A stretch of DNA of 64,000 bases from Alphaproteobacteria bacterium (lineage in GTDB: Bacteria > Pseudomonadota > Alphaproteobacteria > UBA9219 > RGZA01), in assembly GCA_033762625.1 (NCBI GenBank), contig JANRLI010000003.1, positions 186,001-250,000 on the forward strand, written 5' to 3'. Numbering within the stretch: the first letter of the stretch is position 1; each line of letters opens with the position of its first letter. Shown in pieces: positions 42,138-45,226 of this stretch. The notes beneath the pieces are model-generated. The model saw only the letters and a list, made by a program, of their open reading frames with translations. It was not told the origin of the DNA and ran no database searches. A program made the translations under genes and the position numbers.

Positions 42138-42692
42138 ATGCATGAACCCGAAGTTGAATTTTCACGGCTATTTCCCGTTGATAAATTGCGCAGCCATGAA
42201 ATGGATGAACGCATCGAAGCGAATGAAGAAGAGCTGGAGGCATTAGCCAAACGCATGGGGCTTGTTGCGCTGAAAAGCCTTGAAGCAAAGTTGCGTTTGC
42301 AACGCATTCACTCCGGCGAAATGGTAGAAGTGAAGGGCCATTTTAAAGCTAATGTTGTGCAGGATTGCGTTGTAACATTGGAACCGTTTGAAGCATTGGT
42401 GGAAGAAGAATTTACGGCCTATTATGCGCGTCCTGATACCATTCCAAAAGCGGATGAAATGGACATTGATGATGACAATTCGCCAGAACCTATTTCCGCA
42501 AATGGCGATATTGATTTGGGTGAATTGACTGCGCAGCATCTGGCATTGGCGATAGACCCGCATCCGCGCAAACCCGGCGCTACGTTCGAAGTTCCAAAAA
42601 ATGCCAAGGTGGGGGTGGGGGAAAAGCCGATAAATCCCTTCGCGGTGCTTGCGGAATTCCGTGACAAAAAGAATGATAAAAAAGACAAGTAG
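42138..42692 (+). CDS. YceD/DUF177-family protein
   Basis: A 184-residue acidic protein with the DUF177 plan: FSRLFPVDKLRSHEMDERIEANEEELEALAKRMGL, then VEVKGHFKANVVQDCVVTLEPFEALVEEEFTAYY, then GDIDLGELTAQHLALAIDPHPRKPGA. The C-terminus is Lys-rich. The family is usually next to rpmF and has been linked to 23S rRNA metabolism. Here rpmF follows after a 244-bp gap that holds parS. Confidence 0.9.
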   Translation: MHEPEVEFSRLFPVDKLRSHEMDERIEANEEELEALAKRMGLVALKSLEAKLRLQRIHSGEMVEVKGHFKANVVQDCVVTLEPFEALVEEEFTAYYARPDTIPKADEMDIDDDNSPEPISANGDIDLGELTAQHLALAIDPHPRKPGATFEVPKNAKVGVGEKPINPFAVLAEFRDKKNDKKDK

Positions 42693-42734
42693 CTGTTTTT
42701 GAAAAGCGTTGGCAGAACAATCGCTTATAAAAAA

Positions 42735-42750
42735 TGTTTCACGTGAAACA
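42735..42750. other. parS centromere site (ParB-binding)
   Basis: TGTTTCACGTGAAACA is a perfect 16-bp palindrome identical to the canonical parS consensus bound by chromosomal ParB in most bacteria. It lies in the yceD-rpmF gap. parS sites cluster near the replication origin, so this part of the window is probably on the origin-proximal side of the chromosome. No parA or parB gene is in the window. Confidence 0.9.
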
Positions 42751-42790
42751 CATCAAATATGGTGAAAACAGTGAAAAACCAAGTTTTTTG

Positions 42791-42819
42791 TTGACGGTTT
42801 GGCATGCTTGTTTGATTAG
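42791..42819 (+). promoter_or_regulatory. Possible rpmF promoter
   Basis: TTGACG (42791-42796), a 17-bp spacer, then GATTAG (42814-42819). The -10 is weak (3 of 6). It lies about 40 bp from parS, and an RNA leader of about 110 nt would precede rpmF. Confidence 0.35.
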
Positions 42820-42936
42820 AAACCCGTGTATTTATTAATAAAAATGTTAATATCGACGCAAGTGAAGGATGTTCTTGCTTTTCCCCTGCTGCTTAGGTAA
42901 TAAACATCACGATTTTAAACAGTAAAGGTTACCGAT

Positions 42937-43128
42937 ATGGCAGTTCCAAAGAGAAAAACCAGCAAGTCAGTGCGCAACATGCGCCGCTCGCACCACGCAT
43001 TGAAAGCTGTTGGCACATCCGAATGCGCCAATTGCGGTGAAATCAAACGCCCACACCATGTGTGCGGTTCATGTGGCTATTACGATAGCCGTCAGGTTAA
43101 TAGCAAGCAGGATAAGGCTGCTGCCTAA
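42937..43128 (+). CDS. rpmF: Ribosomal protein bL32
   Basis: A 63-residue zinc-ribbon protein of the large ribosomal subunit. [22 protein letters not shown] is the standard N-terminus, and the metal site is [18 protein letters not shown], with all four Cys. Length typical. plsX follows at 50 nt, as in most proteobacteria. Confidence 0.97.
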
Positions 43129-43178: not shown

Positions 43179-44252
43179 ATGCCTCAGCCGACAATCATTG
43201 CGCTTGATGCTATGGGCGGGGACAAAGCGCCCGATGCGGTTATTGATGGTGCCGCAGCAGCGCTGATTATCAACCCCAATATCAAATTCCGCATCTTTGG
43301 TGATGAAGCGCGCGTGCGCCCGCTTATCGCGCGTCATGCTAACCTTGCAAACGCTATTTTCCATCATACACCGGATTTTATTCCAGGCGATATGAAGCCA
43401 TCTGCCGCGCTGCGTCAGGGCCGCAATTCCAGCATGCGGCTTGCGATTAATGCGGTGGCCGACGGCCAAGCCCAAGGTATCGTGAGCGCAGGTAACACCG
43501 GCGCATTGATGGCGTTGGCGCGCCTTGTGCTGGGTTCGCTTCCTGGTATTGATCGCCCCGCAATTGTTTCAACCGTGCCAACCATGACTGGCCGAAGTGT
43601 GATGTTGGACATGGGCGCGAATTTGGAATGCGACGCGGATAACCTTGTACAATTTGCAATTATGGGCACGCTGTATGCACGTGCAGCCTTGCGTATTCAA
43701 ACGCCGCGCGTAGGCCTTTTGAACATTGGCAGTGAAGAAATGAAGGGGCATGATGAATTGCGCGCTGCTGCCGCCATTTTACGTGAAACGCCGCTGCATG
43801 GAAAATTCATCGGCTATATTGAAGCCGATCAAATCCCACATGGTGATGTGGACGTGGTGGTGACCGATGGGTTTACCGGTAACATCACATTGAAAACGAT
43901 TGAAGGCACAGCCAAGCTTTGCTCGAACTTTTTAAAGGAAGCATTACAGTCTTCGCTGCTTGCCAAACTGGGCGCGTTGTTGGCCCGAGGTGCATTCATG
44001 CAAATGAAAGCACGCATGGATCCCCGCGCTTATAACGGCGCGATGCTGGTCGGGTTGCAGGGCGTGTGCGTAAAAAGCCACGGCGGAACCGATGCGCGCG
44101 GCTTTACCAACTCCGTACTCGTTGCTGCACAATTGATTGAAGAAGGCCTGAACGAACGCATTAAAGACGAATTTGCAAAACTTTACGGCGCGCTTCCAAA
44201 CAGCGGTGCAAATGCTGCGCCCAAAGCCATTGAAGGTGAAATACTCCCATGA
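43179..44252 (+). CDS. plsX: Phosphate acyltransferase PlsX
   Basis: PlsX makes acyl-phosphate from acyl-ACP for phospholipid synthesis. The 357-residue protein has IALDAMGGDKAPDAVIDGA, the RQGRNSSMRLAINAVADGQA block, VSAGNTGALMALARLVLG and the C-terminal KSHGGTDARGFTNSVLVAA. Length typical. It overlaps fabH by ATGA. Confidence 0.97.
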   Translation: MPQPTIIALDAMGGDKAPDAVIDGAAAALIINPNIKFRIFGDEARVRPLIARHANLANAIFHHTPDFIPGDMKPSAALRQGRNSSMRLAINAVADGQAQGIVSAGNTGALMALARLVLGSLPGIDRPAIVSTVPTMTGRSVMLDMGANLECDADNLVQFAIMGTLYARAALRIQTPRVGLLNIGSEEMKGHDELRAAAAILRETPLHGKFIGYIEADQIPHGDVDVVVTDGFTGNITLKTIEGTAKLCSNFLKEALQSSLLAKLGALLARGAFMQMKARMDPRAYNGAMLVGLQGVCVKSHGGTDARGFTNSVLVAAQLIEEGLNERIKDEFAKLYGALPNSGANAAPKAIEGEILP

Positions 44253-45226
44253 CTGTGTTGCGTTCAGTTATCAAAGGTGTTGGTTCCGCGCTTCCTGAAA
44301 AAATTCTGACCAATGCGGAAATCGCAGCGCGCGTTGAAACCAATGATGAATGGATTACCCAGCGCACCGGTATCAAACAGCGCCATGTCGCCGCCGAAGG
44401 CGAAAAAACATCTGACCTTGCAACCAAAGCTGCGCAGGCCGCATTGACCCATGCAGGGCTTGGTATTGATGCAATTGATGCCATTATTGTTGCCACCACA
44501 ACGCCTGATGAAACATTTCCTGCCACCGCCACGCGCGTGCAAATGAATTTGGGTATGACGCGCGGCTTTGCATTCGACGTACAGGCGGTATGCTCCGGCT
44601 TCATTTATGCGCTCACCGTTGCCGACCAGATGATCAAAGGCGGGCTAATCCGCAAGGCGCTGGTGATTGGCGCGGAAACCATGAGCCGTTTGCTCGATTG
44701 GAATGATCGCACCACCTGTATTCTGTTTGGCGATGGCGCGGGCGCGGTAGTGCTGCAGGCCGAAAGCGGCAAGGGCGATATGAATGATCGCGGTATTTTA
44801 TCATCCCACTTGTTCTCTGATGGGCGTCAGCATGATTTGCTGTATGTGAATGGCGGTCCATCCACCAGCAAAAATGTTGGCAGCATAAAAATGCAGGGCC
44901 GCGAAGTGTTCCGCCATGCGGTTGACCATATGGCCGATGTGGTGCTGCATGCGCTTGGTTCAAATAATATGTCGATTGCCGACCTTGATTGGCTGGTGCC
45001 GCACCAAGCCAATTTGCGTATTCTGAACGCTACTGCCGAGAAACTTTCTATGCCGATGGAAAAGGTTATTGTGACCGTTGATAAACACGGCAATACCTCC
45101 GCCGCATCCATCCCCCTGGCGATTGCCAGCGCAGTATCGGCGGGCAAGTTCAAGCCGGGGCAGCTCATGGTTTTGGAAGCCTTGGGCGGGGGATTCACAT
45201 GGGGCGCCGTGCTGCTCCGCTGGTAA
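44249..45226 (+). CDS. fabH: Beta-ketoacyl-ACP synthase III
   Basis: FabH starts fatty acid synthesis by condensing acetyl-CoA with malonyl-ACP. The 325-residue protein has the catalytic Cys in DVQAVCSGFIYAL, His in LVPHQANLRIL and Asn in KHGNTSAASIPLA; WITQRTGIKQRH is the CoA-binding opening. Length typical. It precedes ihfA in the standard alphaproteobacterial order. Confidence 0.97.
   Translation: MTVLRSVIKGVGSALPEKILTNAEIAARVETNDEWITQRTGIKQRHVAAEGEKTSDLATKAAQAALTHAGLGIDAIDAIIVATTTPDETFPATATRVQMNLGMTRGFAFDVQAVCSGFIYALTVADQMIKGGLIRKALVIGAETMSRLLDWNDRTTCILFGDGAGAVVLQAESGKGDMNDRGILSSHLFSDGRQHDLLYVNGGPSTSKNVGSIKMQGREVFRHAVDHMADVVLHALGSNNMSIADLDWLVPHQANLRILNATAEKLSMPMEKVIVTVDKHGNTSAASIPLAIASAVSAGKFKPGQLMVLEALGGGFTWGAVLLRW

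Follow-up and report, generated by a model that had tools for sequence, protein, structure and literature searches.

A parS site between yceD and rpmF belongs to a conserved extended element found at every parS copy in an alphaproteobacterial genus

Results

An exact parS match in the yceD–rpmF gap

The window, by which we mean the whole 64,000-nucleotide stretch of DNA analysed here (G000:C3:186001–250000), comes from a 2.23-Mb alphaproteobacterial genome in 26 contigs. Its forward strand carries yceD (DUF177; 42138–42692; Pfam YceD, E=1.9e-14), followed by rpmF, encoding ribosomal protein L32 (42937–43128; TIGR01031, E=1.2e-25, with the match at C3:228940–229101), plsX (43179–44252; TIGR00182, E=7.5e-101) and fabH (44249–45226; TIGR00747, E=2.9e-123), with ihfA downstream of fabH. 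Between yceD and rpmF, 42 bp past the stop of the former and 186 bp ahead of the start of the latter, lies the palindrome TGTTTCACGTGAAACA (42735–42750), which agrees with the chromosomal parS consensus at 16 of 16 positions, as the original prediction had stated. It is the sole match in the window, even when three mismatches are allowed; since shuffled sequence yields 0.39 matches at up to three mismatches, only the exactness of the match is informative.

A genome-wide count of the 16-mer, proposed as a check in the original prediction, returned eight exact copies; allowing one mismatch added nothing, and allowing two added a single unrelated place. The chance expectation for a fixed 16-mer in 2.23 Mb is ~0.0005 copies. 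These counts rule out a chance match, which had already been judged very unlikely. The yceD–rpmF site is held at the same place in the congener G002, and across the seven orthologous pairs of sites in the two genomes all 112 parS bases are the same, with flanks ~72% identical; this comparison places the core under purifying selection. In a second congener, G001, an exact parS lies 37 nt past yceD, with its flanking arm (described below) in the opposite orientation. The G001 gap apparently also contains at least 0.9 kb of extra DNA between parS and rpmF, and the end of G001:C261 (L156) and the start of C61 (L169) share a stretch of 20-odd bp, inverted at one relative to the other, which suggests an inserted element.

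A single chromosomal parA–parB pair accompanies eight parS sites

ParA and ParB are encoded at C2:28.0–29.8 kb, parA directly upstream of parB. The one chromosomal ParB (TIGR00180, E=2e-58, C2:28901) has the domains ParB_N, HTH_ParB and ParB_C and contains the motifs GERRWRA and ENMQRDDL; its CTPase and HTH domains are both present, and its gene neighbours parA. The original prediction that the site implies ParABS segregation, a claim for which absence of parB would have been fatal, is thus sustained by a single parA–parB pair with eight parS. Two of these, at C2:17620 and C2:19738, flank mnmG ~9–11 kb from parB, and the eight are spread over six contigs. All eight are intergenic: the neighbouring genes are co-directional at the window site and C2b, divergent at C7 (rpsF/ppa) and C2a, and convergent at C3a, C10, C21 and C25.

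The system shares with the canonical parS of B. subtilis, Caulobacter and P. aeruginosa its 16-bp palindrome, chromosomal parAB, mnmG pair near parB and multiple copies. Core sequence, copy number, parAB and conservation together argue strongly that 42735–42750 is a chromosomal parS, at which ParB would be expected to bind. Taken as a parS, the window site is ordinary.

Every parS copy lies within a longer asymmetric element

An alignment of the sequences on either side of the 28 exact parS copies of the three congeners (8 in G000, 7 in G002 and 13 in G001) showed that each one, its core unchanged throughout, sits in an asymmetric element consisting of a left arm of ~55 bp, parS and a right arm of ~45 bp. 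The left arm abuts parS and has the consensus ATTTTnnAAAA...TTGTrAAACAAnnncTTATCrAAAA; it is weak at some sites, namely C7, the G002 ortholog of C7 and some G001 sites. By eye, TTATCRAAAA gave no convincing match to a DnaA-box or IHF-site consensus. Right arms fall into two classes: the mnmG sites have CATACAATAGTATGTATTG, and the dispersed sites have CA-N7-GTTGAAnAG...TTAGCAAAAATT...TTGAC. TTGAC recurs 38–40 bp from parS at 17 of the 28.

At the window site, the left arm (42679–42734, forward strand) covers the last 14 bp of yceD and is matched by covariance model R1 at C3:228679–228734 with an in-sample E=1.7e-6, and by a leave-one-out nhmmer profile with E=0.0027. The right arm (class B; 42751–42796, forward strand) reads CA...GGTGAAAACAGTGAAAAACCAAG...TTGACG. 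Its first 35 bp are identical in the G002 ortholog, and its leave-one-out recovery is weak (E=4.8).

The mean best flank identity among sites, out of 60 positions, is 40.5 in G000, 39.1 in G002 and 43.5 in G001, compared with 23–25 for shuffled flanks (24.2 ± 1.0 for G000) and 22.6–27.0 in the comparison genomes G290, G006, G069 and G037, which have little or no arm. Leave-one-out profiles recover the left arm at seven of the eight G000 sites (E from 3.5e-8 to 0.12), failing at C7. For right arms the recovery is poorer, and because this holds for the class B arm the left arm is the better-supported part. Searched against the whole G000 genome, the left-arm model gives eight matches at E≤1.5e-4, which are the eight parS sites, with the next at E=0.05; as these eight belong to the training set, the informative results are the absence of others and an out-of-sample match in G004, a genome of a sister genus, where it again falls at parS (E=0.0028). 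Flank identity between G000 and G002 orthologs is 0.74–0.81 over the first 40 bp and 0.52–0.70 at 41–100 bp.

Local transcription signals are an unlikely explanation of the element

The original prediction took the site to lie about 40 bp from a possible rpmF promoter, with TTGACG (42791–42796, forward strand) read as its −35 box, and proposed that ParB spreading could affect rpmF–plsX–fabH transcription; on this reading the site is a plain parS with a regulatory effect. The site does occupy a co-directional position upstream of rpmF, at the 186-bp distance given above, and all three congeners use the same yceD–rpmF gap. However, TTGACG belongs to the parS element, since TTGAC recurs at the distance from parS noted above at several sites between convergent genes; no sigma-70 pair surrounds it, and scanning 42600–42960 for a sigma-70 promoter gave no match. 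With convergent genes on either side of at least four of the eight sites (C3a, C10, C21 and C25), promoter control is not their common function. In B. subtilis, moreover, genes beside parS are unaffected by loss of Spo0J (reviewed in PMC7022226). We consider regulation of rpmF–plsX–fabH by this route very improbable.

The convergent sites, together with a T-rich run after parS on one strand, could instead be read as a transcription terminator, possibly bidirectional, built around the palindrome. Against this, the mean folding z-score is only −1.3 for whole elements and −0.5 for right arms, no terminator-like site occurs at 42600–42960, and the genes around other sites are co-directional (window, C2b) or divergent (C7, C2a). 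With folding this weak, an intrinsic terminator in the sense of a GC-rich hairpin followed by a T run is rejected, and we give the terminator reading almost no credence.

Different arms accompany parS in other lineages

In G042, from another family, all seven exact parS sites carry a different arm, CCGATTTTTGAAAAAATGGCG...TCTGCCGTGAAAACAA, abutting parS, and a model of this arm matches those seven places (E≤1e-13) and nowhere else. In G223, a complete 2.75-Mb genome whose parS loci on C1 are L294–L302, a shorter motif, TTTGTTCACGAAA, abuts parS at five or more of the dispersed sites. A sequence-specific parS context has therefore arisen, or been copied, more than once; since the arm sequences differ between lineages, a common factor is not indicated.

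Among 387 genomes surveyed in the class, 294 contain an exact parS, most of them in one to three copies, and the survey table holds 13 genomes with at least seven. Many genomes have exactly two sites ~2 kb apart, which we take to be the same mnmG-flanking arrangement. Order relatives of G000 include metagenome-assembled genomes labelled Micavibrio, which makes Micavibrionales the probable order.

G236, of the same class (1.8 Mb; loci L245–L252), has 78 exact and 58 one-mismatch parS copies, with arrays on many contigs, for example six copies at 37-bp spacing, and a single ParB match above the cut-off. G355 (loci L253–L255) has short tandem arrays at 33–34 bp spacing, and exact copies range from 1 to 18 in the genus of G355 and G290. 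Within the same order, the family f2 genomes G005, G007, G013, G015 and G016 have a chromosomal parB; a search of these five genomes found no exact parS and at most one one-mismatch site (in G005), and the ParB target in this family may have drifted.

Signs of copying and of selection on the arms

An alternative view of the arms is that they are passive passengers of a short parS-bearing repeat that was copied around the chromosome, with only the 16-bp core selected. Copy number does vary among the congeners (7, 8 and 13), three G001 sites are alike over more than 100 bp including distal sequence, the G042 copies of the arm resemble one another closely across 60 bp (mean column identity 81%), and the G001 yceD–rpmF element is reversed relative to G000 and G002. 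Similarity that extends past the arms, especially among G001 sites, looks like DNA copying rather than selection. A passenger origin fits less well with the better conservation of the near arm than of DNA 41–100 bp out, and with the presence of the left arm at the sister-genus parS. Nor did the left-arm models find any parS-independent arm copy in G000 or G042, and on this basis a free-standing repeat is rejected. The element resembles REP and MITE repeats in being short, intergenic and present in several copies whose number differs between relatives; it differs from them in that no copy lacks parS, the core is invariant at all 28 sites and orthologous positions are kept between species. Weighing these observations, we regard purely passive arms as rather unlikely, though as the strongest of the competing readings. 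Separately, the neighbours of the G000 parS at C3:37189 (an EamA transporter, an acyltransferase and fabF) are split between G001 L157 and L163, as if a rearrangement had broken at parS.

The window site probably lies 190 kb or more from the origin

The site had also been taken as a sign that the window lies near the replication origin. Mnm​G and parB accompany two of the sites; the window parS is on another of the unordered G000 contigs, off the parB contig and 191.5 kb from the next parS on C3. GC skew along C3 is near zero over the first 40 kb and then positive to the high end, a pattern that puts the origin on the low side of this contig. By this measure, among contigs of unknown order, 190 kb or more probably separate the window site from the origin. 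Such a distance would be compatible with the ~500-kb permissive zone of Caulobacter (PMC5815017), by analogy, and the presence of a parS alone is no proof of position. In G223, eight parS lie beside parB at 1.812–1.817 Mb, at the point where the skew changes sign; ten further exact copies are scattered, reaching within ~0.1 Mb of the expected terminus; parS is therefore an unreliable sign of origin proximity in this class. The original interpretation thus stands in part: its ParABS implication is supported, its origin proximity is not, and its rpmF promoter is rejected.

Another proposal is that the arms give parS a replication polarity, the left arm pointing toward the origin and, for example, biasing SMC or ParB movement. 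At 11 of 13 sites the element points the way that local GC skew would predict (7/8 in G000 and 4/5 in G042), but the p-value of 0.02 is uncorrected, two of the agreements (on C2) rest on near-zero skew and flip with the size of the interval used for the skew, and the short adjacent motif of G223 has no clear polarity. The polarity of the element is suggestive only, and we hold it improbable as an explanation of the arms.

Discussion

What the sequences show directly is that the arms exist, are linked one-to-one with parS and are conserved. Around every copy, conservation extends beyond the core into what looks like an integral site for a partner or for control, as though the centromere of this genus were longer than 16 letters. 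The exceptionless linkage, the conservation gradient and the arm shared with a sister genus favour a function for the arms; copying is favoured by the differing copy numbers, by the extended similarity that some G001 sites share and by the reversed G001 element. Both may be true, the element having spread by copying and been kept by selection. On balance, we lean towards the reading that functional parS lies in a composite element of ~100–120 bp whose arms carry a site for a second factor or set topology.

In such a composite element, ParB would bind the parS core and load from it as a CTP-dependent clamp, and the working unit in this genus would consist of the invariant 16-bp parS together with the asymmetric arm on its left and the arm on its right. 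The arms would most likely either hold the recognition site of a putative second DNA-binding factor or shape DNA topology locally. In this way, we infer, they could govern the timing or the side of ParB loading and sliding, or the place at which SMC is brought in. Dispersed copies, including the window site, would then act as secondary ParB/SMC loading stations. More tentatively, and with somewhat less confidence than we place in the composite reading for this genus, some alphaproteobacteria might possess composite centromeres in which a lineage-specific second site gates or orients ParB loading, with stations chromosome-wide rather than in one origin cluster.

Two features distinguish these sites from canonical parS. 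Each G000 copy has a conserved asymmetric arm on either side, and the copies are dispersed instead of clustered at the origin; according to reviews, most parS lie within the 20% of the chromosome around oriC (PMC7022226), and in Caulobacter they form one cluster ~8 kb from ori (PMC5815017). In the mostly open-access literature on chromosomal parS, we found no description of conserved arms, and looking there for work on parS and ParB in Micavibrio gave no results. The parS core itself is known; its extended, dispersed form is, judged by that literature, new.

The closest experimental parallel comes from Bdellovibrio bacteriovorus, in which 242 or 330 bp of native parS context prevents ParB foci in attack-phase cells but has no such effect in E. 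coli, an indication that a host-specific factor is involved (PMC10547168). In both systems, short parS-adjacent DNA is proposed to affect ParB clustering, and both stand in or near groups with predatory members, which for G000 is deduced from its Micavibrio-labelled order relatives. They differ in that the Bdellovibrio effect is experimental and concerns two sites, with no shared flank motif described in the available part of the report, whereas the G000 elements share a motif recognised from sequence alone. The arm motif offers a handle for seeking the factor behind the Bdellovibrio context effect described there.

For the genus studied here, we know of no equivalent parS-context experiment. 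The textbook parS is a self-sufficient 16-bp site near the origin. Chromosome-wide parS in G223 and G236 calls the rule of origin proximity into question. Conserved arms at every site, observed separately in at least two lineages, would mean, if the composite reading is true, that the centromere could have a second sequence-specific component.
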